From the NCBI RefSeq assembly GCF_024138715.1, contig NZ_CP092074.1, positions 4,588,001-4,652,000 on the forward strand: 64,000 nucleotides of DNA, read 5' to 3'. The stretch comes from Emticicia sp. 21SJ11W-3. GTDB lineage: Bacteria; Bacteroidota; Bacteroidia; Cytophagales; Spirosomataceae. Each line of letters starts with the position of its first letter. Positions within the stretch are counted from its first letter, which is position 1. A program made the translations under genes and the position numbers. Positions 31,576 to 46,726 of this stretch are shown in pieces. The notes beneath the pieces are model-generated. The model did no database searches. It saw nothing but the letters and a program-made list of their open reading frames with translations, and was not told the origin of the DNA.

Positions 31576-31927
31576 TTATTCTTTGGTTTTTCAATTAAAC
31601 GCCATTTGCTTTCAGCGGTATATGTACCGGCAAAAGCAAATAAGCTATCATCTGCAATTATTGGGCAGGCATTTGCCAGAACTAACTACGGGGTTCAGGA
31701 GGCTTATCTTAATACGGCTTCCTGAAGATAATTAAACACCTGAAAACGACCGGAAATCTGGTTTTTGACCAATAAAATTGTTGCCAATTTGATTGTATCA
31801 AGTTTCAAATATTTCAAGTCTTTTTCAAAAAATCAAATTTTTGACAAAAAAATTAGTATGCTTGCATAATATCAGTCTAATTTTATTAACTTTCGACTTT
31901 CTATTTTTACCTCAAAAATACAAGACA
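31576..31927. other. Intergenic region upstream of the SCP2 operon
   Basis: A 352-base region without a convincing gene. It holds the operator at 31855-31870, a weak -7 element at 31887-31894, and a 10-base-arm hairpin (31694-31703 and 31717-31726) with a 13-base loop and no U run. An in-frame start at 31793 for the SCP2 gene lies here but is not credible. Confidence 0.6.
31855..31870. promoter_or_regulatory. MarR-type operator, SCP2/acyl-CoA dehydrogenase
   Basis: The 16-mer AGTATGCTTGCATAAT with core TATGC-TT-GCATA at 31857-31868. It is identical to the site at 44825. Its centre is about 24 bases before a -7-like TAACTTTC (31887-31894), so it covers the -33 region of the presumed promoter of the SCP2 gene. 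Confidence 0.65.
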
Positions 31928-32236
31928 ATGACCGCAAAAGAATATTTACAAAACACAACAGCCAAGTTAAACGAGTCTGAAATTGAAGATGTAAACACAA
32001 CTTTGCATTTTGATTTTGGCAGCGAAACCTACACCATGAACGTAGCAGCCGGCAAAGCAGTGTTAAAAGAGGGCTTTGAAGGAACCGCAGAATGTGTGAT
32101 TAAGGCCAATGAAGCAGACTTTGTGAAAATTGCAACCGGCGATATGAACCCGATGATGGCAATGATGATGGGGAAACTGAAAATATCTAACCCGGGCGCC
32201 ATGATGAAATATGCCAAAATGCTAGGCCTGATGTAA
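31928..32236 (+). CDS. SCP2 sterol-carrier domain protein
   Basis: A 102-residue small protein made of one SCP2 domain (a lipid-binding alpha/beta fold that carries fatty acyl-CoA or sterols). The pattern LHFDFGSETYTMNVAAGK and the later IKANEADFVKIATGDMNPMMAMMMGKLK segment match SCP2 members. The Met-rich MNPMMAMMMGK segment is a family feature. It precedes an acyl-CoA dehydrogenase by 52 bases, so it may deliver acyl-CoA to that enzyme or protect it. A start at 31793 is rejected because it adds 45 residues outside the domain. The operator site upstream points to regulated expression. Confidence 0.9.
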   Translation: MTAKEYLQNTTAKLNESEIEDVNTTLHFDFGSETYTMNVAAGKAVLKEGFEGTAECVIKANEADFVKIATGDMNPMMAMMMGKLKISNPGAMMKYAKMLGLM

Positions 32237-32288
32237 CCGGCTGTGTGCTTTTTATTTCAGCATCTTAAAACTTTTCAATGAGCGTATC

Positions 32289-34079
32289 ATGGCAAAGAAT
32301 TTCTTCAGTAAAAGAAACGTGAATTTTCTACTTTATGAAGTACATGACGTAGAGTCACTGACAGGGCATAGCTATTTTGCAGACCACAACAGGGAAACCT
32401 TCGATATGACCATCGACACGGCCACTCAGATAGCCGAAAACCTGATGTTTCCGTTTCTGAAAGACGTTGATAAAAACCAGCCGGAGCTAAAAGATGGCCA
32501 GGTGCAGGTGCATCCCTCTATCAGAAATTACCTGAAAGCAGTAGGGGAATCTGGTATTATCGGAGCAGACTTCGATTACGAAAACGGAGGCGCCCAAATG
32601 CCGGTAACTATCACAAGCACAGTAGGATACATTCTGATGTCGGCCAATAACGGTATGATGTATACAGGCCTTACCGCCGGTGGTGCAAGGCTAATTGCCA
32701 GCTTTGGCTCTGATGAACTGAAAAAGCAGTATATAGAAAACATGATTACCGGCAAATGGCAGGGAACCATGTGCCTTACCGAGCCACAGGCGGGTAGTTC
32801 GCTCTCTGACATTACCTCTTCTGCCGAGCCTCTGGAAAATGGCGCTTACAAAATAAGAGGGCAAAAGGTTTTTATTTCTGCCGGAGACCATAATGCAACC
32901 GAAAACATTATACATCTGTTTCTGGCCCGTATTAAAGGCGCGCCAAAGGGCACCAAAGGAATATCTTTATTTGTAGTACCCAAATACAGGCTGGATGGCA
33001 CCGATAATGATGTTACCTCTATGGGTATTTATCATAAATTAGGCCAAAAAGGAGTACCCGCCATGCACTTGGGCTTTGGCGACAGAAACGACGATTGTAT
33101 CGGGTATCTGGTAGGTGAACCCAATAAAGGGTTGTCTTATATGTTTCAGATGATGAATGAAGCACGTATAGGCGTGGGCCTTACCGGGGTTTCTATTACT
33201 TCTGCTGCTTATTATGCTGCCCTAGAGTATGCACACGAAAGGCCGCAAAGCCGCAGGTTAAATGCCAAAACCGCATTAGACACACCTCAGGTACCGATAA
33301 TTCAGCACCCTGACGTGAAAAGGATGCTGCTATTCCAGAAATCGGTAGTAGAAGGCGGCTTGTCTTTGTTGCTGGAAACCTCTAAGTATTTCGACCTGTC
33401 GGAAGCAAGTGATGACCCTGAAGAAAAAGAGAACGCTCACCTGATGGTTGAGTTGCTGACACCGATTGCCAAGACTTTCCCATGTGAATACGGTGTGTTG
33501 TCTATCAGCAATGCGGTTCAATGCTTTGGCGGATATGGCTTTACTGAGGATTTCCCGGTTGAACAATACTACCGTGATATCCGCATTACGCCTATCTATG
33601 AAGGTACAACCGGGATACAGTCGCAGGATTTACTGGGTAGAAAAATAATGCTTGCGGGCGGAAAACCCCTGCAACTGCTTGCTGCTGAAATAGGCAAAAC
33701 AATTGAAACAGCCAACCAATACGATGGCTTAATAAAATATGCTCAGCTGCTTACAGAAAGCACCGGGCAATTATCGAAGGTAACAAAACATCTGTTGGGT
33801 ATTGCAGGCACCGGTGATATTGAAAGATTCTTGTCTGATGCCACACTTTATATGGAGCTTTTCAGCCTGAATGTAATTGCATGGCAATGGCTGAAACAAG
33901 GCGTTGTGGCGCAGCAAAAACTATTGGCAGGCACCAATGATGCCGACTTCTACGAAAGTAAAATTCATACCATGAAATATTTCTTTCATTATGAACTACC
34001 CAAAACACAAGGGCTGGCAACACGCCTTACAGATACGGAAGTACTGACGATAATGACAGAAAAAGAAATAGTAATGTAA
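32289..34079 (+). CDS. Acyl-CoA dehydrogenase, long form
   Basis: A 596-residue FAD-dependent acyl-CoA dehydrogenase that introduces the first double bond in fatty-acid beta-oxidation. The N-terminal helical domain, the FAD-binding beta domain (MCLTEPQAGSSLSDI around residues 161-176) and the C-terminal helical domain (QCFGGYGFTEDFPVEQYYRD, then EGTTGIQ) are all present. The C-terminal extension of about 150 residues is typical of the long FadE-like and Bacteroidota forms. It follows the SCP2 gene by 52 bases and is likely driven by the same operator-controlled promoter. A terminator follows at 34084. Confidence 0.93.
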   Translation: MAKNFFSKRNVNFLLYEVHDVESLTGHSYFADHNRETFDMTIDTATQIAENLMFPFLKDVDKNQPELKDGQVQVHPSIRNYLKAVGESGIIGADFDYENGGAQMPVTITSTVGYILMSANNGMMYTGLTAGGARLIASFGSDELKKQYIENMITGKWQGTMCLTEPQAGSSLSDITSSAEPLENGAYKIRGQKVFISAGDHNATENIIHLFLARIKGAPKGTKGISLFVVPKYRLDGTDNDVTSMGIYHKLGQKGVPAMHLGFGDRNDDCIGYLVGEPNKGLSYMFQMMNEARIGVGLTGVSITSAAYYAALEYAHERPQSRRLNAKTALDTPQVPIIQHPDVKRMLLFQKSVVEGGLSLLLETSKYFDLSEASDDPEEKENAHLMVELLTPIAKTFPCEYGVLSISNAVQCFGGYGFTEDFPVEQYYRDIRITPIYEGTTGIQSQDLLGRKIMLAGGKPLQLLAAEIGKTIETANQYDGLIKYAQLLTESTGQLSKVTKHLLGIAGTGDIERFLSDATLYMELFSLNVIAWQWLKQGVVAQQKLLAGTNDADFYESKIHTMKYFFHYELPKTQGLATRLTDTEVLTIMTEKEIVM

Positions 34080-34083
34080 CAAC

Positions 34084-34110
34084 CGGGGGGACTGCTAAGG
34101 CGTCCCCCCG
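34084..34110. terminator. Bidirectional terminator
   Basis: Perfect 9-base GC-rich arms (34084-34092 and 34102-34110) with a 9-base loop, between the convergent acyl-CoA dehydrogenase and DUF2807 genes. Confidence 0.75.
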
Positions 34111-34127
34111 ATGCTTTTAATACCGAA

Positions 34128-34811
34128 TCAATTTGCCGATTTTACTGTTCCTGCACCTGAAGTATTGGCAACAACAGAGGTAGCGCCGCCTTTGTACCGC
34201 ACACTGCTTGCTCCGCTGGCTTCTGCTACTATTCTACTGGTAACATATACTTTGGCTCCACTTGAACCCGAGGCATCAATTGTAGCCGTAGATACCTTAA
34301 AGTCATAAGCATTGACGCTTGAAGCGCCTGAGACATCGGCAGTGAGCTTCTGTCCGTCGCCAACAATAGCAACACTTGAAGCGCCTGAACAATCAAGGGC
34401 TAAATTTTTTGCATCAATATCAAAGGTAGCGCTCGACGCGCCCGACAAATCAATACCAAAAGATTCGCTGCTGAAACCCGATACTTTTGCTTTGCTGGCG
34501 CCTGAAAAACTGACAGCCACCAGTTTGGGCATGGTTATGTTGATGTACACTTCCTTGCGGTTTTTCCAGCCAGACCAGTTAGACGGATAGCCAATCCGGA
34601 GTTCACCGTTTGATACTTTCACAACCAGGTCTTCCAAATCCTGCTCACGTCCTGAAGTTTCTATCTTGTAATTGTTAGACTGCGTAACCGTAATAATAAA
34701 GGCGTTGCCCATATCGAGTTTATCGAAACCACTTAAACTGAATGAACGCTTAGATTCCTGTGCGGTAGCAGCAGTTGCAATGAATAGGAGTAAAATGAAT
34801 AGCTTTTTCAT
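34128..34811 (-). CDS. DUF2807 (GIN domain) exported protein
   Basis: A 227-residue protein with a signal peptide ending near AATAQ (residue 18). The mature part matches the DUF2807 'head GIN domain' family, a right-handed beta-helix in which each turn repeats a short phrase of the type SGASS(V/A); at least five such phrases are visible between about residues 110 and 215. Members are cell-envelope proteins of unknown role in Bacteroidota, sometimes described as putative adhesins. No sorting domain is seen. Ends near the terminator shared with the acyl-CoA dehydrogenase gene. Confidence 0.88.
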   Translation of the reverse strand: MKKLFILLLFIATAATAQESKRSFSLSGFDKLDMGNAFIITVTQSNNYKIETSGREQDLEDLVVKVSNGELRIGYPSNWSGWKNRKEVYINITMPKLVAVSFSGASKAKVSGFSSESFGIDLSGASSATFDIDAKNLALDCSGASSVAIVGDGQKLTADVSGASSVNAYDFKVSTATIDASGSSGAKVYVTSRIVAEASGASSVRYKGGATSVVANTSGAGTVKSAN

Positions 34812-34921
34812 GATTTTGTATTTGTTATTGTATCTATATCCATAAGATGAAAAAAAACTTTAAACGTTGCATAGCAGGGCTTAAATTTTTGCATTTATTT
34901 ATTTGGGTTATTTCAAAAACA

Positions 34922-34950
34922 AAAAAGCTGCCCAGAACAGGCAGCTTTTT
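34922..34950. terminator. Terminator of the T9SS-cargo gene
   Basis: Perfect 11-base arms (34922-34932 and 34940-34950) with a 7-base loop and A/T runs at both ends. It terminates the leftward gene that ends at 34974. Confidence 0.75.
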
Positions 34951-34973
34951 CAATATCAATACTTAACCGGTTG

Positions 34974-36038
34974 TTACTTGTTTAATATCATTTTCTGATA
35001 CAAAGGCTTTTTTGAGTCTCCACGCACTACTCTCACTGTCAGCTCAGTTGCAGGCAGGTGTTCAGGCAATACATATGCTTTACGTAAGTCTTTTACGGTT
35101 CCTGTTTTTTGCAGTACCCTGGTGCCATCCTGGTTGACGACATCAACTGTTATCAGTTCAGTTTCATTCATTCCTGATAATTTCAGGAAAAACTCACCGT
35201 CAGTAGGGTTCGGATACACCCCGATAGCCGGTTGGATATTACGACTTTTGGCTCTGGTGAAAAGCGTACCACTGGCGAGGTCAGTGGTTGCAGAGAGACT
35301 GGCATCTTCACTTATTGACCAGGTGCCTTTATCAAGAAACGCTATTCCGTCTAAATCAGACCCATTGGCTAAAGATATTTTTGCTGAACCTTTGGCCGAT
35401 TCAGATTTCAGTGTCCAGTATTCATTCTGGTTGATAGCGTCAACATTTTCTGAAACCTTCTCAGAAATAGTCAAGGGGCTTCTGTAAAGGTACGATGCCG
35501 TTAAGGTCTGATTGCTATGATTACCCGCTACCCTGAAAGAGCGATAATTGCTGCCGTCTCCCAGCGGAAATTCAAAAGATTCACTACCTTCTTTACTGAT
35601 TACACCTTTGATATGAGAAAAATCCGAGGCTCCGTCATATCTGCTGCCAGCACTGAATATCAGCGGACTCTGCAAAGAAGATTCAATCACCCCTCTACGG
35701 AAAGACAACGCACCGTCAACCCGCAAGGGGGCTTCCAGCTTTAAATCGTTATCGAGCATTAACTGCCCGAAAGACAATTCCTTTGGACTTCTCAGAACCT
35801 GCATACTGTTACCGTCGAAAACAACTGTTCCGTTCGATTTCAGCAAACTCAGGTTATCAAAATTCTTCTGAAAATGTACCTTACCGTTATTAGTGATTTT
35901 CCCGTCGTTTACTACATCAGTATTAAAGCTCACAACGGCACCTTCGCTCACAAAGAGTTCAGCACCATTATTATACACTTGTGCCTGTATTTGCGTAGCC
36001 ATCAGGCATACGCCAAAAGAGTAGATAATTTTCTTCAT
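34974..36038 (-). CDS. Type IX secretion cargo with sorting domain
   Basis: A 354-residue exported protein. The signal peptide ends near IQAQ (residue 19). A beta-rich passenger region follows (NNGKVHFQKN, GTVVFDGNS and similar strands). The last 80 or so residues form a type A C-terminal sorting domain (IGVYPNPTDGEFFLKLSG, then VDVVNQDGTRVLQKTG, ending in YQKMILNK), the signal for export through the type IX secretion (Por) system and anchoring or release at the surface. The passenger function is not recognisable. A terminator follows. Confidence 0.88.
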   Translation of the reverse strand: MKKIIYSFGVCLMATQIQAQVYNNGAELFVSEGAVVSFNTDVVNDGKITNNGKVHFQKNFDNLSLLKSNGTVVFDGNSMQVLRSPKELSFGQLMLDNDLKLEAPLRVDGALSFRRGVIESSLQSPLIFSAGSRYDGASDFSHIKGVISKEGSESFEFPLGDGSNYRSFRVAGNHSNQTLTASYLYRSPLTISEKVSENVDAINQNEYWTLKSESAKGSAKISLANGSDLDGIAFLDKGTWSISEDASLSATTDLASGTLFTRAKSRNIQPAIGVYPNPTDGEFFLKLSGMNETELITVDVVNQDGTRVLQKTGTVKDLRKAYVLPEHLPATELTVRVVRGDSKKPLYQKMILNK

Positions 36039-36160
36039 AACAACACCCTTTTAATTTTACACGCTAAATGTAAATAATATTCATTAGAAGAAAAAGAATT
36101 TAATGCAAATTCTATTAATTGGTTTAAAAAATAAAGGCTGGCAGTATCCTGAAAAACAAA

Positions 36161-37318
36161 TCAGTAAAGCTTTACTTTATTAACCAGCAATACCCACACC
36201 AAAGCCAGAGAGGCAATCAGAGCAAAAGCAAAAGGCAGGCTTATGCTTTCAGAAACAAAGCCTATCAGAACCGGCCCGGCCAGAAATCCGGCCATGCTAA
36301 AGGTATTCATGGTTGCCAAACCCGCACCTTTGGCCATGCCGGGTACCCTTGCCGAGCTGCCGTAAAGAATAGGCGCCCCGCATGAAACCCCTGCCCCCAC
36401 TAAGGCAAAACCTAAAATGGCCGTGGCTGTGTAGGGCAATAGAATAGATATAATAATACCGGCGGCAGCAATAATACCACCTATTTTAAGCACCTGATTT
36501 CCGCCATAACGCGGAATAAGGGCATCGCCGGCAAAACGACCCAGTGACATACAAAGTGAGTATCCGGCCAGCCCCCAACCAATAAAGTAATCTTGTGTTT
36601 GTACTACATCGCGCATATAAACGGCTGTCCAGTCGGCCATGGTACCTTCGGTAATATTGGTACACAGGCTTATCAGTATCATCAATAGTAAGGCGCCTTT
36701 CGGAAAAACAAATTTTGCGCCTTCGCCAGCTTCTATCTTTTCTTCATGAATACTCATAACCGTGGGCCGGATAAAAAATGCAAGACCTATAAAGCAGACG
36801 GTTATCAGCCACATATGGTAAGTTGGGGGTATTTTCATACCCTGTGTAAAACTTGCCAGAATAGAGCCCAGCATTAGCCCGGCACTAAACATACCATGAC
36901 AGGTAGACATGATGTTGATGCTATATTGATGCTCAAGACTGGTAACACAGGTGTTCATGGCCACATTGGTGGTAGAAATGCTGATACCCACCAGAAACAA
37001 ACTAAAGGCTACCAGCGGCAGGTAGTTCATGGTTACAGGCATGGCATACACCACCGACATAAAAATCAGACCGGCAATGGTGGTGTTTCTCATACCAAAA
37101 CGGTTAATGAGAATCGTAGTAAAGGGGTTCATACCTGCGGCACCCAGAGGCATAAAAAGCAGCAGTAAGCCCAGTTGGGCATCATCTAATGCATATTTTT
37201 GCTTTACAAACGGAATAAGCGTAGCCCAACTGCCAAACAACATGCCCATGGCTGTAAAAACCATGGCAACAGCCAGACTCTGGCGATGAAAGAAAAATGT
37301 TGATAAATGCTTAAACAT
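36161..37318 (-). CDS. MFS transporter
   Basis: A 385-residue inner-membrane protein with about twelve hydrophobic helices, in the major facilitator superfamily. The family loop between helices 2 and 3 is recognisable (ILINRFGMRNTTIAGLI). It most resembles the fucose/sugar-type or FucP-like and drug-exporter-like MFS permeases, but the substrate cannot be deduced. It stands alone between the sorting-domain gene and the VOC-HAD pair. Confidence 0.9.
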   Translation of the reverse strand: MFKHLSTFFFHRQSLAVAMVFTAMGMLFGSWATLIPFVKQKYALDDAQLGLLLLFMPLGAAGMNPFTTILINRFGMRNTTIAGLIFMSVVYAMPVTMNYLPLVAFSLFLVGISISTTNVAMNTCVTSLEHQYSINIMSTCHGMFSAGLMLGSILASFTQGMKIPPTYHMWLITVCFIGLAFFIRPTVMSIHEEKIEAGEGAKFVFPKGALLLMILISLCTNITEGTMADWTAVYMRDVVQTQDYFIGWGLAGYSLCMSLGRFAGDALIPRYGGNQVLKIGGIIAAAGIIISILLPYTATAILGFALVGAGVSCGAPILYGSSARVPGMAKGAGLATMNTFSMAGFLAGPVLIGFVSESISLPFAFALIASLALVWVLLVNKVKLY

Positions 37319-37397
37319 AAAATAAGAGAGCCAACAGGATGTATTTTAAACAATACTGACCTGATGGCTGATAATACAATTCAATTACAAAATATTT

Positions 37398-37787
37398 TTA
37401 TGCCGTAATTTCTATACGGTTCTTTTCAGGGTCCAGAATCACACTTTCATAGTAGCCGTCGCCTGTCCATCGGGGCTCTCCAACAACCTCAAAACCAGCT
37501 TTTCTGAATAGCTCCGTCATTTCATCAACTTTTGCTTTGCTCCCTACTGAAAAAGCCAGGTGCGTAAGACCCATAAACTGTTCATGCCCACTATTTGTGG
37601 TATCGGTAATACCGGGCATCTGCATCAGCTCAAGCCTTGCGCCTGAATAAAAAGCAATAAAGTATGACTCATAGTTTTTCTTCTCATTTCTATACTTCTC
37701 ATTGGCTACCCCACCGAAATAAGTAACGTAAAACTCGCGCATCAAATCCAGGTTTCTTACCCAAACAGCCACGTGCTCAATTGTCAT
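37398..37787 (-). CDS. VOC family glyoxalase-like protein
   Basis: A 129-residue protein of the vicinal oxygen chelate fold. The two beta-alpha-beta modules are clear: the first starts IEHVAVWVRNLDLMREFY, with the metal-site His at residue 4, and the second ends with ESVILDPEKNRIEI, where the conserved Glu lies. Members include glyoxalases and dioxygenases; the reaction here is not known. Its start codon overlaps the last four bases of the HAD gene stop (ATGA), so the two are translationally coupled. Confidence 0.88.
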   Translation of the reverse strand: MTIEHVAVWVRNLDLMREFYVTYFGGVANEKYRNEKKNYESYFIAFYSGARLELMQMPGITDTTNSGHEQFMGLTHLAFSVGSKAKVDEMTELFRKAGFEVVGEPRWTGDGYYESVILDPEKNRIEITA

Positions 37788-38446
37788 AGCTCAAAAAATG
37801 ATTTAATATGCTGGTACGTCAGCCCTCTGTAATCTGCAATGTAGTGGGTGCAAACCGGTAATTCTTCCTTTTTATAGGTTGTTAAAACCCCAATAACTTT
37901 GGCACCGGCAGCTTTACCGGCCGTAACGCCTGAATGCGAATCTTCAAAAACAAGACAGTTTTCAGGCAGTATACCCAGATTAGCCGCCGATTTTATATAA
38001 ACCTCAGGGTGGGGCTTATGATGGGTTACATCTGCACTAGATAACAGCGACTGCATTTTATCTGCCAATGGCAGTTTGTTTAAAATCATTTCAAGGTTCT
38101 CGACAGGCGCAGAGGTGGCAATACCCGTTTTGATGCCATTGGCTTTCAGGTCGTCAATAAAATCCAGAAGGCCCTCAATAGCAACTACTTCTGGTTCATA
38201 GAGTTGTCTGAACAGCGCCTCCTTCTCAAACTCCATCAGGTTAAACTCGTCGCCGGTTACCTCTCTTTTAAGAAAGTATTTCAGAATATAGCTGTTGCTT
38301 TTGCCATACATGTGGGCTATAAATTCTTCTTCTGTGGCCTCAATATCATATTTTTTCAAGAATGCCTTCCAGGCCAGCGAATGGTGAGGGTTGGTGTGGC
38401 AAATAACCCCGTCCATATCAAAAATTACTGCAAATGGTGTTTCCAA
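37784..38446 (-). CDS. HAD phosphatase, beta-phosphoglucomutase-like
   Basis: A 220-residue HAD-superfamily enzyme. The nucleophile motif FDMDGVI is at residues 9-15, the cap helices follow, then the second motif (GIATSAPVENLEM, Thr/Ser near residue 117) and the last acidic motif LVFEDSHSGVTAGKAAGA near residues 165-182. It resembles beta-phosphoglucomutase and sugar-phosphate phosphatases of this superfamily. It starts with TTG, chosen because the family begins within two or three residues of it. The downstream VOC gene overlaps it by 4 bases. Confidence 0.88.
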   Translation of the reverse strand: METPFAVIFDMDGVICHTNPHHSLAWKAFLKKYDIEATEEEFIAHMYGKSNSYILKYFLKREVTGDEFNLMEFEKEALFRQLYEPEVVAIEGLLDFIDDLKANGIKTGIATSAPVENLEMILNKLPLADKMQSLLSSADVTHHKPHPEVYIKSAANLGILPENCLVFEDSHSGVTAGKAAGAKVIGVLTTYKKEELPVCTHYIADYRGLTYQHIKSFFEL

Positions 38447-38759
38447 TAGTAGATATCTGATTTTTAACGCAAAATTACGGCTTTTGCCCGGCGTTTACCA
38501 GTTATTTATTTGCTAATTCTGATGCCTGATTGACCAGCCGGCCATCAACAAAAAGAATACCGTCAAAGCAAGCCCTGAAACATATTTAAAAGCCTGATTT
38601 CAAGAAATTGACGGGCCAAATTATTAGTATTGCAGAAAAGAACTATCTCTTTAATTATTTGGTTACATGATTTGAGACTTTTCTCTCTTAATGAAAGATT
38701 TACCAATTCCAACAATATAAATACCCGAATCTGTACGAAGGACACCGGGCTTTTTCTGC
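38447..38759. other. Intergenic region upstream of uvrA
   Basis: A 313-base AT-rich gap between the divergent HAD and uvrA genes. I see no gene and no clear perfect TAnnTTTG promoter. A LexA-type box cannot be recognised by eye. Confidence 0.55.
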
Positions 38760-41648
38760 ATGGACAATTCTGCGCTTAATTTAATAAAATACCCCGATGT
38801 TGATGCCCTTGACCCTAAGCAATTCATCATCATTAAAGGAGCCAAAGTAAATAATTTAAAAAATATTGATGTTGCCATTCCGCGCAACAAACTGGTGGTG
38901 GTAACGGGGCTTTCAGGCAGTGGAAAATCGTCTCTGGCGTTTGATACCCTCTTTGCCGAAGGCCAGCGTATGTATGTAGAGAGTCTCAGCTCTTATGCAC
39001 GCCAGTTTCTGGGCCGTATGGAAAAACCCGAGGTAGAGTACATCAAAGGTGTTTCGCCGGCTATTGCCATAGAACAGAAGGTAGCCACCAAAAACCCGCG
39101 CTCTACTGTGGGTACTACCACCGAAATCTACGACTACCTGAAGCTCTTGTTTGCCCGCATAGGCATTACCTATTCGCCGGTTTCAGGCAAAGAGGTAAAA
39201 AAAGATACGGTAACTGATGTTGTGAATTTTATTCTGTCAAAAGAAGAAGGAACCAGAGTAATGGTACTGACCCCGCTGAAAATAAAAGACAACCGGAATG
39301 TAAAAAAAGAACTTGACCTGCTGCTTCAGAAAGGATACACCCGTGTGGTGGTTGACGGAGAAATAAAACAGATTGAAGAAATAGTTGAAGGAACTGAGAT
39401 TATAGACGAAAAACAGCACAACATTGAAATTCTGATAGACCGGAACGTGGTAAAATATGATGAAGATACGCAGTTCCGTTTCTCAGATTCTATACAAACT
39501 GCTTTTTTTGAAGGAGAAGGCGAATGTATTGTAGATGTAATTGGCCAGGGGAAACATACTTTCTCTGACAGGTTTGAGTTAGATGGCATAGCCTTTGAAG
39601 AACCAAGCGTTAATCTATTTACTTTTAATAATCCGTATGGCGCCTGTAAGCGCTGCGAGGGATTCGGGAAAATTCTGGGTTTAGACCCTGACCTGGTGAT
39701 TCCGGATAAAAATCTTTCGGTATTTGAAGGAGCCATTGCTCCCTGGAGAACCGAACGCATGAGCGAGTGGGTAGCGCCGTTACTCAAAAACGGCATCCGT
39801 TTCGACTTCCCCATTCACAGGGCTTATAAAGACCTTACCCAGGAGCAAAAAGACCTGCTCTGGACAGGCAATTCTTATTTTGAAGGCCTGGACGCATTCT
39901 TTCGGGATATAGAAAGCCAGGTACACAAGGTTCAGTACCGGGTAATGCTTTCACGCTATCGGGGGCGTACCGATTGCCCTGAATGCCGGGGCTCGCGACT
40001 GCGTAAAGATGCAGCTTATGTAAAAGTAGGTGGCGCTTCTATTACCGACCTTGTACTGATGCCGATATCAGATGTATCACAATTCTTTAATAATCTTGAG
40101 CTGCCTGATTATCAGCAAGGCATAGCCAAAAGAATACTGATTGAAATTAACAGCCGTCTGGATTTTATGGAACGGGTTGGTTTAGGATACCTGACACTCA
40201 ACCGATTAACCTCCAGTCTGTCAGGCGGCGAGTTTCAACGTATTAAACTGGCCACCTCTCTGGGTAGTGCTCTGGTTGGTTCAATGTACATTTTAGATGA
40301 GCCAAGCATCGGCCTGCACCCGAGAGATACGCGCCGTTTGGTAAGTGTGCTGGAATCATTAAGAGATTTAGGTAACACCGTAGTTGTGGTAGAGCATGAG
40401 GAAGAGGTAATGCTGGCAGCTGATGAGATAATTGACATTGGCCCCGAAGCAGGAACCCTGGGCGGTAACCTGATGTTTCAGGGGAATTGGGAAGATATTA
40501 TGCGGTTGAAAACAACCCCACCCCTAACCCTCCGCGACGGCGGCCGCCCCAACAGTGGGGAGGGAGTCGTAAGCCACACTATCCGCTTCCTGACAGGTGA
40601 AGACCATGTGCCTGTGCCTCAGAAAAGAAGAAAACCAGCCGACTTTATTGAACTAAAAGGTGCCAGAGAGAATAATTTAAAAGAGGTAGATGTAAAATTT
40701 CCGCTAGGTACACTTACCGTGGTAACGGGTGTGAGTGGTTCGGGAAAATCTACACTGGTTCGCAAAATCCTTTTCCCGGCCATTGCCAGGCTAAAAGGAG
40801 AATACAGTGAAGAAGCCGGAAAATACAGCGAGTTGATTGGCTCTCTCGACAGAATTACGCAGATCGAAATGGTTGACCAGAACCCAATAGGTAAGTCGTC
40901 GCGTTCTAACCCTGTTACCTATATTAAGGCCTACGATGCTATCAGGCAGTTGATGTCAGACCAGCCCCTGTCTAAAGCCCGCGACTACAAACCGGCTTTC
41001 TTCTCATTCAACGTTGATGGCGGCCGTTGTGAGGCATGCCAGGGAGAAGGAGAACAAACCATAGAGATGCAGTTTATGGCTGATGTACGCCTGAAATGCG
41101 AAAGTTGCGGTGGCAAGCGCTTCAAACAGGAGATTCTGGAAGTGAAATATAAAGATAAAGACATTGCCGATATACTGGCCATGACGGTGGATGAAGCTCT
41201 TGAGTTTTTCAGGGAAAGTGACCCGAAACTGGCCGAGAAACTTCAACCTTTGCAGGATGTGGGCTTGGGTTACATTGGTTTGGGACAGTCGTCAAGCACT
41301 TTGTCGGGTGGTGAGGCACAAAGGGTTAAACTGGCATTCTTCTTAAGCAAAGGCAATGCCGATAAAGGTAAAACCTTGTTTGTGTTTGATGAACCAACAA
41401 CCGGGCTACATTTTCATGACATCAAGAAGCTGCTGAAAGCCATTAATGCCTTGGTTGACCAGGGAGACTCGGTTATTATTATTGAACACAACATGGAAAT
41501 CATTAAGTCGGCCGACTGGATAATTGACTTAGGCCCTGAAGGCGGAGAAAAAGGTGGCTATCTGACTTTTGAAGGCACGCCAGAAGATATGGTAAAGCTG
41601 GAAAATAACTATACAGCTGAGTTCCTTAAAGATAAGATAAAGGTCTGA
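38760..41648 (+). CDS. uvrA: Excinuclease ABC subunit A
   Basis: A 962-residue DNA-damage recognition ATPase of nucleotide excision repair. Both ABC modules are complete: Walker A GLSGSGKS at residues 50-57 and GVSGSGKS at 657-664, the signature LSGGE motifs in each half (SLSGGEFQR and TLSGGEAQR), and zinc-finger Cys pairs ([32 protein letters not shown]). Unusual: residues 587-605 (40518-40574) in the linker between the two ABC modules are a short GC-rich insert encoded by a REP-like palindromic repeat. The gene ends at a hairpin shared with the marR gene. Confidence 0.97.
40513..40574. repeat. REP-like GC-rich repeat inside uvrA
   Basis: The stretch from about 40513 to 40574 carries AACCCCACCCCTAACCCTCC, then a GC-rich GCGACGGCGGCCGCC core, then CCAACAGTGGGGAGGGAG. 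The outer arms (CCCTCC and GGGGAGGG) are complementary. Similar CCCCACCCCTAACCC/GTGGGGAGGG palindromes are widespread short interspersed repeats in Bacteroidota and other phyla. It adds 57 bases (19 codons), keeping the uvrA frame. Its base composition differs strongly from the flanking gene. Confidence 0.7.
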
Positions 41649-41670
41649 ACTAAGTTCAGACCTTTATCTT
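41634..41670. terminator. 17-bp perfect bidirectional terminator
   Basis: Perfect arms of 17 bases (41634-41650 and 41654-41670) with a loop of 3 bases. The left arm contains the uvrA stop codon (41646-41648), and the right arm overlaps the marR stop at 41669-41671. Confidence 0.85.
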
Positions 41671-42136
41671 AATGCATTATTTCAAATATAATATTGTCTT
41701 TTACCTTGCTGTTTTCTTCATCAACCAAAGCATTAATATCTTTAATTACCTCAAAAAAAACAGCCAGTTTTTCAGCAGGGATAGTCTCCTGAATCTTCTT
41801 GTTGAAGATAATCACTCCTTCGCGGGCAAAATTCCTCTTTTTCTTCCCTTCCTCTGTCAGGTACACCTTTACAAAACGCTTGTCGTCGGCATCTGTTTCT
41901 CTGTAAATCCAGCCTTTTTCTTCAAGGGTTTTCAGCATGCGCGTCAGACTTCTGGGCTCCATACCTATCGACGGCCCAATTTTAGTTGCCGGCGTACCTT
42001 TCTCTGAATCAATATTAAGCAAGACATACCCAATGGCCATGGTAATATCATATTGCCCTGCATAAGTATTATACATACGCGAAATGGCATGCCAGGCCCA
42101 TTTAATGTAAAAATCAATAGTCTTTTCCTTCCTCAT
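41669..42136 (-). CDS. MarR-family transcriptional regulator
   Basis: A 155-residue winged-helix regulator of the MarR family, which acts as a dimer and commonly represses genes until a small phenolic or acyl-CoA ligand is bound. The recognition and wing regions are visible around TKIGPSIGMEPRSLTRMLKTLEEKGWI and RETDADDKRFVKVYLTEEGKK (about residues 56-110). The promoter carries an 18-base palindrome (42179-42196) directly upstream, and the same palindrome core is in front of two acyl-CoA dehydrogenase genes. I infer an autoregulated fatty-acid-catabolism repressor or activator. Confidence 0.93.
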   Translation of the reverse strand: MRKEKTIDFYIKWAWHAISRMYNTYAGQYDITMAIGYVLLNIDSEKGTPATKIGPSIGMEPRSLTRMLKTLEEKGWIYRETDADDKRFVKVYLTEEGKKKRNFAREGVIIFNKKIQETIPAEKLAVFFEVIKDINALVDEENSKVKDNIIFEIMH

Positions 42137-42161
42137 TGGTGTTTTTTGCTTCGGGTAACCA

Positions 42162-42169
42162 CAAATGTA
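42162..42169 (-). promoter_or_regulatory. marR -7 element TACATTTG
   Basis: Read leftwards, a perfect TAnnTTTG element 26 bases before the marR start codon. The operator palindrome lies 10 bases upstream of it, over the -33 region. Confidence 0.65.
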
Positions 42170-42178
42170 GAAAAAAAT

Positions 42179-42196
42179 CAGTATGCAGGCATACTG
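42179..42196. promoter_or_regulatory. MarR autoregulatory operator
   Basis: Perfect palindrome with 8-base arms, CAGTATGC-AG-GCATACTG, centred at 42187.5, between the marR start and the -33 region of its promoter. Core TATGC-2-GCATA is shared with the sites at 31857, 44827 and 44870. Confidence 0.75.
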
Positions 42197-42334
42197 TTCG
42201 GAAAATTATTTTGAGAAACAGAAACCTTCTTCTTTTTTAATTGATATACAATATTTCTAAAATGTAAATTTTGTTTTCTTTCGTGCCTGCATTCTTCATA
42301 AATACCTACGTATCTTTGAGTTATGAAAAAAAAA

Positions 42335-42354
42335 GCGACCGGTTGCCCGGTCGC
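42335..42354 (-). terminator. ilvE terminator
   Basis: Perfect 8-base arms (42335-42342 and 42347-42354) with a 4-base loop, followed in the leftward transcript by a run of nine U. Confidence 0.8.
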
Positions 42355-42384
42355 CTATATCATACATTAAGTAATTTGCTATAA

Positions 42385-43455
42385 TCAGGCATTTACTTTC
42401 CAAACCCAGCCAAAAGTATCTTCTACTTTACCTGTGCGTAAATCATTCAAAGCATTTTTCAGTTTAGAAGAAACCGACGATTCGGTTATGGCAGGTAAAT
42501 CGTAATCTTCACCATTGTAGCCAATAGCTGCAAACGGAGAAACCACAACCGCTGTACCGGCGCCAAAAACCTCGGTTACCTTACCGCTTTTTATACCGGA
42601 AATCACCTCATCTACAGATACTTTTCTTTCTTCAACTTCAATATTCATCGATTTCGCCAATTGCAACAGCGAATCGCGGGTGATACCTTTCAGAATTGTG
42701 CTGCTTACGGCAGGGGTTACCAGTTTACCATCAATCACAAACATCACGTTCATCGTGCCAGACTCCTCAAAATACTTGTGTTCAATGGCATCTGTCCATA
42801 ACAATTGGGTATAGCCTTGCTCCTGCGCCAACTTGGCCGGATACAAAGAGGCTGCGTAGTTACCTGCACATTTGGCATAACCCACACCACCCGGAGCAGC
42901 ACGGATAAACTCGGTCTCTACTTTCACTTTTGGCGGTGTAGAGTAGTATTTACCGGCAGGGCTCATAATAATCATGAACCGGTAGCTCTGAGAAGGGCGA
43001 ACACCCAGGTAAACATCACTAGAGAACATAAACGGACGTAGGTACAATGAGTTATCTTCACCTTTAGGAACCCAGGCCGCATCTAAACGCAACAACTCTT
43101 CCAACCCGCCTACAAATATATCTTCAGGTACCTGTGCCATACACATACGTTCTGCCGAAATATTGAAACGTTTCCAGTTTTCCTGCGGACGGAACATCAA
43201 AACTTCGTCATTATCATTCTTGAAAGCCTTCATACCTTCAAAAATGGCTTGTCCGTAATGCAGCACTGCAAGCGCCGGATTATAGCTGATATCGCCATAA
43301 GGTAAAATTTTTGGTGTCTGCCACGCGCCGTTTATATAGTCGGCCACGAGCATGTGGTCTGTAAAGAGTGAGCCAAACTGAATATTATTGGGGTCAAGCT
43401 GATGTATCCTGCTTTCAGCTACTGTGGTCACGTCGAAGTTTAATGTCTCTGTCAT
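42385..43455 (-). CDS. ilvE: Branched-chain amino acid aminotransferase
   Basis: A 356-residue fold-type IV PLP enzyme, interconverting Leu, Ile and Val with their 2-keto acids. The PLP lysine lies in GYAKCAGNYAAS, and the family phrase EESGTMNVMFV supplies the glutamate. The length and order of motifs match the eukaryotic/BCAT2-like type found in many Bacteroidota, somewhat longer than the E. coli IlvE. It stands alone with its own terminator, about 300 bases from the marR gene on the same strand and without other branched-chain genes nearby. Confidence 0.95.
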   Translation of the reverse strand: MTETLNFDVTTVAESRIHQLDPNNIQFGSLFTDHMLVADYINGAWQTPKILPYGDISYNPALAVLHYGQAIFEGMKAFKNDNDEVLMFRPQENWKRFNISAERMCMAQVPEDIFVGGLEELLRLDAAWVPKGEDNSLYLRPFMFSSDVYLGVRPSQSYRFMIIMSPAGKYYSTPPKVKVETEFIRAAPGGVGYAKCAGNYAASLYPAKLAQEQGYTQLLWTDAIEHKYFEESGTMNVMFVIDGKLVTPAVSSTILKGITRDSLLQLAKSMNIEVEERKVSVDEVISGIKSGKVTEVFGAGTAVVVSPFAAIGYNGEDYDLPAITESSVSSKLKNALNDLRTGKVEDTFGWVWKVNA

Positions 43456-43943
43456 GGTAAACCTTTTTTAATAACTCAAATAAAATTTCTTTTGCGAAGC
43501 AACAAAGAATATACCACATTGTCAAGGAAAAATGCAAAAATAGTTGTTAAGACAAGTTTTCTTTTCCTGATACCCCTTTAAGTAGTTTTGTCTGATAATA
43601 AAAACTCATATTCTGGCGCAATTAAAAGCTGCCGGCAAAGCTTTGAAGCTATACGTACTACCCATACAACCGGCATATACGCACAGCTGAAAAAATGAGG
43701 GATCTTCATTAAAACCATTCTTACAAAACGTACACTCTTAAACCCGGGCAAATGGCAAAACAGGTGGTAATAAAAGGCATTAAATGGCATAAGTTTACCA
43801 GGGATTTTGCCTGTTATGCTTTTTTCAGTTTTCTTTGCCAACTGCCCTGATATAAACTAATTCAAGTGTCTGACTGAAACAATCTTTTAATTGAATGGTT
43901 CTTAATTGTTAAACGGGTGTAACCTTTCTGAAGATTGAGTACT
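43456..43943. other. Intergenic region upstream of ilvE and the phosphatase
   Basis: A 488-base region between two divergent genes. A perfect rightward -7 element (TAGTTTTG, 43583-43590) is present but far from the phosphatase start (over 350 bases). A small leftward frame of 87 codons at 43578-43841 is rejected as a gene. I see no RNA gene. It may hold decayed sequence. Confidence 0.5.
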
Positions 43944-44678
43944 ATGAAACCACGTACACTAGTTGTTGGCGATATACATGGCGGGCTGAAAGCATTAAAG
44001 CAGGTGATGGAACGTGCCGCTGTGAGTAAAGATGACACCCTCGTATTTCTGGGTGACTATGTAGATGGCTGGAGCGAGTCGGCACAGGTGATACAGTTTC
44101 TGATAGAGCTTAACGAAACCCGGAATTGCGTTTTTGTGAAGGGGAATCATGATGTATGGTGCGAAGAGTGGCTGCGCGAAAAAGAATGGGATAAAGTTTG
44201 GGGCTTTCACGGTGGTTTTCTGACAGTGAAAAGCTATGAATCAATAAATGATGCAGAACGGCTGGAACATCTGAATTTTTTTGAACGCATGAAGATGTAT
44301 CATATCGACGACAACAACCGCCTATTTATACACGCCGGGTTTACTTCTATGCACGGGCCGATGCAGGAGTTCCACCCATCTAATTTTAACTGGGACAGAA
44401 CCCTTTGGGAAATGGCGCTGACGATGGATAAGCACATCAGGAGAGACTCAAAACTGTTTCCTAAAAGGCTTTTGATATTTGATGAAATATACATTGGGCA
44501 TACCCCTACCCTGAACTATGACACAACCGTACCTATGAACGGCTGCAATGTTTGGAACATAGACACCGGGGCGGCGTTCTGGGGTAGCCTTAGTATATTA
44601 GATGCCGACACCAAGCAATTCTGGCAAAGTGACCCCCTGCCCCAATTATATCCCAACGAAAAAGGAAGGAACAGATAA
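43944..44678 (+). CDS. PPP-type metallophosphoesterase
   Basis: A 244-residue calcineurin-like metallophosphatase of the bacterial serine/threonine protein phosphatase/diadenosine tetraphosphatase type. The metal-site motifs are all there: GDIHGG at residues 9-14, GDYVDGW at about 40-46, GNHD near 70, and later HAGF (about 133) and IGHTPT (about 189). Substrate is unknown. An alternative TTG start at 43935 adds three residues; the ATG at 43944 is preferred. Confidence 0.92.
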   Translation: MKPRTLVVGDIHGGLKALKQVMERAAVSKDDTLVFLGDYVDGWSESAQVIQFLIELNETRNCVFVKGNHDVWCEEWLREKEWDKVWGFHGGFLTVKSYESINDAERLEHLNFFERMKMYHIDDNNRLFIHAGFTSMHGPMQEFHPSNFNWDRTLWEMALTMDKHIRRDSKLFPKRLLIFDEIYIGHTPTLNYDTTVPMNGCNVWNIDTGAAFWGSLSILDADTKQFWQSDPLPQLYPNEKGRNR

Positions 44679-44824
44679 TAACCTTACTGGCACGCTACTG
44701 ATTTGCCTGTAGACCTGTTCTGCTTCTACAAAAGCAACAAATACACTGCCCGGTAAAAGATCGGCCCTCTATACCTCTTTTAGCAGTAACAAAACCTTAA
44801 CGGGACCGGTTAAAAAAAACTAAT

Positions 44825-44840
44825 AGTATGCTTGCATAAT
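44825..44840. promoter_or_regulatory. MarR-type operator 1, acyl-CoA dehydrogenase
   Basis: The 16-mer AGTATGCTTGCATAAT, identical to the site at 31855, with core at 44827-44838. It lies over the -33 region of the promoter whose -7 element is at 44856. Confidence 0.75.
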
Positions 44841-44855
44841 ATTTTCAAAAAATAT

Positions 44856-44863
44856 TATCTTTG
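44856..44863 (+). promoter_or_regulatory. -7 element TATCTTTG, acyl-CoA dehydrogenase
   Basis: A perfect TAnnTTTG element 64 bases before the preferred start of the acyl-CoA dehydrogenase gene, framed by two operator palindromes whose centres are 43 bases apart. Confidence 0.7.
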
Positions 44864-44869
44864 TAACAG

Positions 44870-44881
44870 TATGCGCGCATA
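44870..44881. promoter_or_regulatory. MarR-type operator 2, acyl-CoA dehydrogenase
   Basis: A perfect 12-base palindrome TATGCGCGCATA with the same TATGC/GCATA half-sites, at the presumed transcription start, just downstream of the -7 element. Confidence 0.7.
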
Positions 44882-44926
44882 ACAATGGCCTGCATTTTCA
44901 AAAGACGAATTTCAACTCATAATACT

Positions 44927-46726
44927 ATGTTAGCAACTGAAAATAAAGCATCAATTAAAGGAGGAGAATTCCTGATAAAAGATGTGGAAGCACATCAGAT
45001 TTTTATTCCGGAAGAGTTTTCAGAAGAACAAAAATTGATTGCCGACACCTGTCGCGATTTCTTGCGTACAGAAATCCACCCACGGCTGAACGAAATTGAC
45101 AATGCCAAGTCGCCGGAGCTTATGTCATCTCTCATGACCAAAGCGGGTGAATTGGGTTTGTTGGGTACTGCCGTGCCGGAAGAATACGGCGGGTTTGGCA
45201 TGAGTTTTAATACCTCAATGCTGGTAGCAGAAGCACTGGGGCAAGGCCACTCGTTTTCAGTTGCGCAGTCGGCCCATACAGGTATTGGTACCTTACCTAT
45301 AGTATATTACGGAAACGAAGAACAAAAAGCTAAATATCTCCCGCTACTAGCCACAGGCGAATGGAAAGCCGCTTATTGCTTAACAGAGCCGGATTCAGGG
45401 TCTGATGCCAACTCTGGCAAAACCAAAGCAGCTTTGTCGGAAGATGGCACACACTATATCATTAACGGACAAAAGATGTGGATAACCAACGGCGGTTTCG
45501 CCGATTTATTCATTGTCTTTGCCAAAATTGATGATGACAAAAACCTGACGGCATTCATTATTGAGAAATCTTTCGGTGGTATTACCATGAACGAACCAGA
45601 GCACAAGCTGGGCATTAAAGGCTCAGACACCCGCCAGATTTTCTTTAACGATTGCCATGTACCTGTTGAAAACATGTTGTCGTCTCGCGGTAATGGTTTC
45701 AAAATAGCAGTAAACATACTCAACGTTGGGCGTATTAAACTGGGCATAGCCGTAATAGGCGGGTCTAAAGGCTCTCTTGGCCATGCTATTAACTACGCCA
45801 ACGAGCGCAAGCAATTTGGTGTTTCTATTGCCACATTTGGCGCTATTAAATATAAACTGGCCGAAATGGCTACGCGCATTTTTGCCTCGGAGTCTGCCAA
45901 CTACAGAGCCGGACAAAACATTGACGACGCCATAGAAGACCTGAAAGCCCAGGGCTTAACAGATGCCGAAGCCAAGCTGAAAGCACTGGAGCAGTTCTCT
46001 ATTGAGTGTGCTATTATGAAAGTGCACAGCTCTGAAGTGCTGGATTATACCGTTGACGAAAGCCTGCAGGTGTATGGCGGTATGGGTTATTCGGCCGATG
46101 CACCTATGGAGCGAGCTTACAGAGATGCGCGTATCAACCGGATTTTTGAAGGCACCAACGAAATCAACCGTATGTTGATTATTGACATGCTTTTGAAACG
46201 TGCGTTGAAAGGCGAGATAGACCTGATGACCCCCGCAATGGCCGTTGCCAAAGAAATTATGTCTGTGCCTGATTTTGGTGGCGCCGACGACGAAAGCGTA
46301 TTTGCCGTTGAAAAGAAAGTGTTGAAAAACCTGAAAAAAGCAGCGCTGATGGTAGCAGGTGCAGCCGTGCAAAAATTCATGATGTCGTTGTCTGAAGAAC
46401 AGGAAATACTAATGAACCTGGCAGATATGGCCATTGAAATTTATGTGGCTGAGTCAATATTGTTAAGAGTTGAGAAATTGATTGGCGTTAAAGGAGAAGC
46501 TAACGTGGCACTGCAAAAAGATATGGCTCTTATTTATCTGCACGAAGCCGTAAACAAAGTAAACATTGCAGGCAAAGAAGCCATTGCGTCTTTTGCTGAA
46601 GCCGATGAGCTGCGAGTAATGCTGATGGGTCTGAAACGATTTACCAAGATTGAACCATTTAACCTCAAAGCTGCGCGCCGCAGAGTGGCCGAAGCCATGA
46701 TTGAGGAGAATAAATATATTTTTTAA
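44927..46726 (+). CDS. Acyl-CoA dehydrogenase
   Basis: A 599-residue acyl-CoA dehydrogenase of the medium/long-chain type with a C-terminal extension. The FAD-binding region YCLTEPDSGSDANSG is near residues 148-162, the substrate-side WITNGG follows, and the later QVYGGMGYSADAPMERAYRDAR and EGTNEINR motifs are the family signatures. The ATG at 44927 is preferred to 44885; the latter would add 14 residues and would start only about 15 bases from the presumed transcription start. Its promoter is bracketed by two MarR-type operators. It has no thiolase or hydratase gene beside it. Confidence 0.95.
   Translation: MLATENKASIKGGEFLIKDVEAHQIFIPEEFSEEQKLIADTCRDFLRTEIHPRLNEIDNAKSPELMSSLMTKAGELGLLGTAVPEEYGGFGMSFNTSMLVAEALGQGHSFSVAQSAHTGIGTLPIVYYGNEEQKAKYLPLLATGEWKAAYCLTEPDSGSDANSGKTKAALSEDGTHYIINGQKMWITNGGFADLFIVFAKIDDDKNLTAFIIEKSFGGITMNEPEHKLGIKGSDTRQIFFNDCHVPVENMLSSRGNGFKIAVNILNVGRIKLGIAVIGGSKGSLGHAINYANERKQFGVSIATFGAIKYKLAEMATRIFASESANYRAGQNIDDAIEDLKAQGLTDAEAKLKALEQFSIECAIMKVHSSEVLDYTVDESLQVYGGMGYSADAPMERAYRDARINRIFEGTNEINRMLIIDMLLKRALKGEIDLMTPAMAVAKEIMSVPDFGGADDESVFAVEKKVLKNLKKAALMVAGAAVQKFMMSLSEEQEILMNLADMAIEIYVAESILLRVEKLIGVKGEANVALQKDMALIYLHEAVNKVNIAGKEAIASFAEADELRVMLMGLKRFTKIEPFNLKAARRRVAEAMIEENKYIF

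Follow-up and report, generated by a model that had tools for sequence, protein, structure and literature searches.

A MarR-family protein as the probable autoregulated repressor of beta-oxidation in Emticicia, with an operator present in several families of Bacteroidia

Which protein controls fatty-acid breakdown in Emticicia sp. 21SJ11W-3, and through which DNA sites? The question is raised by a stretch of 64,000 nucleotides, called the window below (positions 4588001-4652000 of the single 5,177,490-base contig), in which the 12-base core TATGCNNGCATA stands before the gene of a 155-residue MarR-family protein and before genes of beta-oxidation. This protein is probably an autoregulated repressor of beta-oxidation that acts via TATGCNNGCATA and is released by a fatty-acid-derived ligand, and the best reading of the wider comparison is that such a repressor is widespread in the class Bacteroidia. 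In the proposed mechanism, a MarR dimer would bind TATGCNNGCATA sites in overlap with core promoters; such a site spans the -33 region or follows closely on the -7 box. The bound protein would block RNA polymerase at marR and 11 other promoters, and would be released by the ligand, most likely long-chain acyl-CoA. Binding by the MarR protein, repression in preference to activation, and the ligand are all three what we infer from the evidence set out here.

The core occurs four times in the window; dinucleotide shuffles average 0.05 occurrences, and none of 100 shuffles reaches four. The places are those of the original prediction, which had been made from the letters of the window (31857-31868, 42182-42193, 44827-44838 and 44870-44881, all exact matches without strand), and only one start, formerly 42183, is corrected to 42182. 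The first core lies in the promoter of a gene for an SCP2-domain protein of 102 amino acids (31928-32236, plus strand; Pfam SCP2, E 3.9e-14). A 596-residue acyl-CoA dehydrogenase, ACAD596 (32289-34079, plus strand), begins 52 bases behind SCP2 and presumably shares its operon; the ACAD596 orthologues of two other genera (genomes G005 and G030) have a site at their own promoter. The -7 box of Bacteroidota is TANNTTTG, and the SCP2 gene has a weak form of it with one mismatch, TAACTTTC (31887-31894, plus strand). The marR gene itself (41669-42136, minus strand; Pfam MarR, E 4.9e-12) has an exact box, TACATTTG (42162-42169, minus strand), and the core at 42182-42193. An 18-base perfect palindrome had been claimed there. 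Its two 8-base arms are indeed perfect, CAGTATGC-AG-GCATACTG, but the 2-base centre is not palindromic, and the wording was slightly too strong.

The third promoter in the window belongs to a fadE-type acyl-CoA dehydrogenase (44885-46726, plus strand; NCBIfam NF058590, 797 bits against a cut-off of 600), the start of which may be 44927 instead of 44885, judging from an orthologue in G021 that starts only at residue 15 when aligned with the longer frame. Two cores serve this promoter. The first (44827-44838) covers the -33 region with a central TTG, and the second (44870-44881), 43 bases from the first, lies just past the exact -7 box TATCTTTG (44856-44863, plus strand). The identity noted for the 16-mers at 31857 and 44827 in fact extends beyond 16 bases, and the near-equal distance from site to box also stands, with the box starting 29 (fadE) and 30 (SCP2) bases past the site start. 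The -7 boxes had been placed correctly as well, exact for marR and fadE and weak for SCP2, and the identities of the genes (MarR family, SCP2, two acyl-CoA dehydrogenases) are upheld.

A scan of the whole 5.18-Mb genome, with 9-19 kb examined around all 16 sites that lie beyond the window, gives 20 TATGCNNGCATA sites against 4 for a control in which the pattern is read backwards. The association with fatty-acid genes expected from the window extends to the genome, since 13 of the 20 sites fall in 12 promoters of marR and lipid genes. Three of these promoters are in the window: those of SCP2-ACAD596 (genome position 4619857), marR (4630182) and fadE (4632827 and 4632870). The other nine lie elsewhere on the chromosome, so the notion of one local regulon is not borne out and a purely local regulon is rejected. 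Operon-scale targets among the nine are etfBA (2404785); a fadJ-like operon (1390141), in which a 164-residue frame overlaps a 714-residue hydratase/3-hydroxyacyl-CoA dehydrogenase; and a fadB-like operon (4239820), in which a DUF4442 gene is followed by an 802-residue dehydrogenase/hydratase and a second thiolase. The remainder are a thiolase (4231384), a 387-residue acyl-CoA dehydrogenase, ACAD387 (4808479), an FA_hydroxylase-family protein (4088050), a 444-residue 4Fe-4S protein (536060), a 284-residue CCG iron-sulfur protein (4282172) and a TonB-dependent receptor (5092056). Nine Acyl-CoA_dh_M and four Thiolase_N matches exceed the cut-off in this genome; a site precedes three of the nine dehydrogenases, in one case via the SCP2 operon, and directly precedes one of the thiolases. 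With 4300 genes and 21 site-adjoining genes assumed, the hypergeometric enrichment is 8e-6 for dehydrogenases and 3e-7 for dehydrogenases and thiolases together.

The seven sites away from lipid genes are close in number to the chance expectation given by the reversed control. Four are within coding frames (819025, 2812214, 3255385 and 3279202). The three intergenic ones (1295717, 4028812 and 4199078) are treated as chance occurrences; neither strand has an exact -7 box within 50 bases of them. When the extended pattern is allowed one mismatch, it is found at 33 places against 16 for the control, 22 of them with the mismatch in the core. Twelve of these 22, in 11 regions, were sampled and none precedes a reference target, so that one-mismatch sites are rejected as extra targets; ten of the twelve are inside reading frames and two, in L324, are outside frames of 90 amino acids.

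Some targets invite comment of their own. The 164-residue protein that opens the fadJ-like operon (L021:5160-5651) has no Pfam match. The 4Fe-4S protein (L018:3684-5015) and the CCG protein (L030:5174-6025) have the operator in common at separate loci, and are perhaps two halves of an ETF electron-transfer partner.

The position of the sites within promoters bears on how the regulator would act. At 12 of the 13 lipid and marR sites an exact -7 box begins somewhere from -20 to +29, counted from the start of the site, the SCP2 box with its mismatch being the other. Seven sites begin 14-20 bases past the box start (second fadE, 444-residue Fe-S protein, fadJ-like operon, etfB, FA hydroxylase, thiolase and fadB operon). 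At five others (marR, first fadE, ACAD387, TonB receptor and SCP2) the box lies 24-30 bases downstream of the site start, which means that the operator covers the -33 region; at the CCG promoter the box is at +13. Some MarR proteins are activators, and it could be supposed that this one activates instead of repressing, or does both. An activator could also act at those sites that cover the -33 region, but of the 13 sites seven are past the -7 box, where they cover the start region, and the others are in the core promoter; repressors usually sit at such places, and we regard activation as quite unlikely.

The fit between operator and promoter extends to the centre of the palindrome. Of 256 distinct sites in the fetched loci, 51 have a box start at +26 to +29, and 50 of these have TT as their two central bases; most of them are marR loci of one family. 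With that spacing, TT yields the TTG of a -33 element inside the operator, 18-21 bases before the -7 box. When marR loci L215 and L220 are removed, TT is found in 9 of 10 non-marR sites of this geometry and in 6 of 32 of other geometries (p 9e-5, kinship being ignored); with the two kept, the figures are 11 of 12 and 6 of 32 (p 1.6e-5), the exception being a CA at a site inside a gene in L119. Pairs of operators spaced 42-43 bases, as at fadE in the window, are also found at fadE of G014 and G021. Exact pairs at this spacing, about four helical turns, occur at fadE/fadB promoters (44827/44870 in the window; L117, L118, L157 and L165). A fixed spacing is weakened as a rule by the full set of ten exact pairs, of which five are 42-43 bases apart and the rest 29, 30, 46, 48 and 51.

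The protein itself is a MarR winged-helix protein by domain match (PF01047, 46 bits against a cut-off of 24.6), and its predicted structure has the MarR fold (mean pLDDT 87.8), with MepR, AbfR, SarZ, MarR, FabT and SlyA among the closest solved folds. Sensing by a thiol switch of the OhrR/SarZ type is rejected, since there is no cysteine among the 155 residues. It is not FabT by the equivalog model NF050133 (27.1 bits against a cut-off of 200). Another match, structure 1s3j, is YusO of B. subtilis, presumably encoded near fadNAE, and we treat it as a lead only.

In the family Spirosomataceae the regulator is nearly universal. An orthologue is present in 148 of 150 genomes, the present one included (57-100% identity, E < 1e-49), and those of Emticicia sp. 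C21 and BO119 share 94% identity with the present protein; among the 150, G129 gives no match and G092 a weak one only. Motif counts are above those of the control in 133 of the 150 genomes, including all 11 of the genus, which sum to 198 sites against 33. All 67 sites were inspected in four other genera, and those at marR or lipid genes number 14 of 21 in G005, 10 of 17 in G014, 9 of 16 in G021 and 4 of 13 in G030. The G005 count becomes 16 of 21 if two SDR genes are included, and its extra targets are FadD, further hydratases and a second thiolase. TonB receptors 27-30% identical to that of Emticicia (locus L017) in G014, G021 and G030 were left out of these counts. Among the best 80 marR loci of the matches listed for the family, with an upstream reach of 250 bases, 69 have an exact site upstream of marR. 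In 55 of the 80, fadB lies downstream of marR, as its immediate neighbour in 44 and past one small intervening frame in 11. Of a further 20 family loci, eight have fadE directly behind marR and five have fadB. In Emticicia marR adjoins uvrA, and the operators are retained.

Two variations were seen in the family. Two loci of genus g21 (L102 and L103) retain the marR orthologue with the operator core absent before it, where another inverted repeat seems to be present. In relatives with small genomes (L091-L095 and L104), a variant of the palindrome, GGATGC-NN-GCATCC, precedes the usual marR site.

A search with a profile of the regulator (E < 1e-20) in a phylum-wide sample of 247 genomes found the protein in 46, all of the same class (families f1-f4, f6, f7 and f10, of which f7 might at a guess be Flavobacteriaceae); it was not found in f5, f8, f9 and f11. 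For the 44 genomes with the regulator outside Spirosomataceae, 28 loci were given. The exact core lies upstream of marR in 25 of these and with one mismatch in the remaining three. A fadB orthologue follows marR in all 28, on the same strand, at most 145 bases away and with no 60-residue frame between. Because fadB follows marR in these 28 and in the 55 of 80 Spirosomataceae loci, the pair looks ancestral from gene order. Some other targets recur as well. Sites in two f7 genomes precede etfB, a TonB receptor 41% identical to L017 and NMO-family genes; in one f7 genome each they precede a flavin oxidoreductase with 2,4-dienoyl-CoA reductase domains and a FabH-like gene. In the f4 genome G248 they are found at ACAD387 and the 444-residue Fe-S protein, with two or three of its ten sites clear.

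It might be argued that the sites define a beta-oxidation regulon whose main reader is another DNA-binding protein, marR being merely one of its targets. The genome does encode other MarR-type proteins (three matches in G000, the next best at 29% identity). The site before marR and the place of marR beside fadB in several families speak against such a reader, as does the conservation of the DNA-reading residues together with the operator, and we hold this explanation to be unlikely. E60, S63, L64, R66, L68, E72, D85 and R87, in and around the recognition helix and wing, are invariant in the Emticicia protein and all 28 outside-family orthologues. W15, M21, Y22, N23, F111, N112 and F127, retained in at least 90%, may line a pocket.

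Several observations weigh against a MarR repressor of beta-oxidation acting through this core. Six of the nine acyl-CoA dehydrogenases of the genome are without a site, and none of its eight AMP-binding genes (acyl-CoA ligases) has one within one mismatch. In the family, the motif does not rise above control in 17 of 150 genomes, including five of six in genus g21 and several in g5. The exact site is missing from 11 of the 80 marR loci, of which seven have a one-mismatch form; several loci of Runella, and genus g21, are without an exact site before marR. Across the class, motif totals tell carriers of the regulator from non-carriers weakly (p 0.03): the 44 outside-family carriers have 263 sites against 98 for the control, and 15 genomes of the class without the regulator have 55 against 32. 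In f2, carriers of the regulator have as many sites as the control (12 against 12), and an excess is found in some genomes without it (G275, 11 against 3; G378, 8 against 2). The last point would suit an explanation of the palindrome by chance or general sequence bias; the totals for the Emticicia genome and genus, and the recurrence of the same target genes in other genera, make that explanation hardly credible. The original prediction, which tied the MarR protein, the palindrome and beta-oxidation (SCP2 included) together, is strongly supported by the genome-wide targets, promoter geometry and conservation, but its scope was too local. Nor is the system confined to this organism, as the marR operator and the marR-fadB pair are present in several families of the class.

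Comparison with known systems helps to place the regulator. FabT, a MarR-family lipid regulator of streptococci, controls fatty-acid synthesis with acyl-ACP as co-repressor; the FabT-DNA structure 6jbx is among the sequence and fold matches, as a distant one (E 2.5e-6). SlyA/RovA and CouR have the MarR fold in common with the Emticicia protein. SlyA binds TTAGC-AA-GCTAA, an operator laid out 5-2-5 like the Emticicia core, and CouR responds to a CoA thioester, whereas the targets and ligands of these proteins differ from those of the regulon proposed here. The FadR proteins of Bacillus and Thermus have an operator different from TATGCNNGCATA and belong to the TetR family, unlike the Emticicia regulator; the fadE target matches the Bacillus FadE model. 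As with these FadR proteins of Bacillus subtilis and Thermus thermophilus, which the excerpt of PMC6449355 cites beside a Sulfolobus one that it describes, scattered beta-oxidation operons would be under a dedicated repressor, with release by acyl-CoA in the known cases. The excerpt of PMC5343134 covers FadR (GntR), PsrA and FadP (TetR) of Proteobacteria solely; they too govern a fatty-acid-degradation regulon spread over the genome through one common operator, and differ from the present protein, to which Pfam gives MarR domains, in being of the GntR or TetR family. Among the genes changed in a Fur study of Riemerella, as far as the excerpt of PMC5609570 goes, are a MarR gene (RAYM_03869) and a 3-hydroxyacyl-CoA dehydrogenase gene (RAYM_03864). 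Their close locus tags and joint change are a possible independent sign of co-expression.

Proteins of this type, and fatty-acid regulons as a concept, are known already. What appears new is a MarR regulator paired with beta-oxidation across Bacteroidia, the operator of that regulator, and the inclusion of a TonB receptor in the regulon of a genome without a detected FadL family (PF03349 was not found in this one genome searched). No MarR regulator of beta-oxidation in Bacteroidota is described in the open-access literature searched, with most subscription journals and RegPrecise outside the search. The TonB-dependent receptor (L017:4557-7747), with the operator at its promoter, is a candidate lipid importer. 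More tentatively, with the odds somewhat against it, the regulator might be a class-wide, non-orthologous counterpart of FadR: its operator and fadB neighbour are kept over several Bacteroidia families, the -33 TTG is inside the operator at many promoters, and the TonB receptor would import fatty acids in place of FadL.

Control of fatty-acid breakdown has been described in Proteobacteria, Bacillus, Thermus and an archaeon, and the open-access literature searched yielded none for Bacteroidota. A regulator whose 12-base operator is common to several families offers a direct and testable handle on lipid use in this group, and it points to a TonB-dependent receptor as the candidate lipid importer of a genome in which no member of the FadL family was found.

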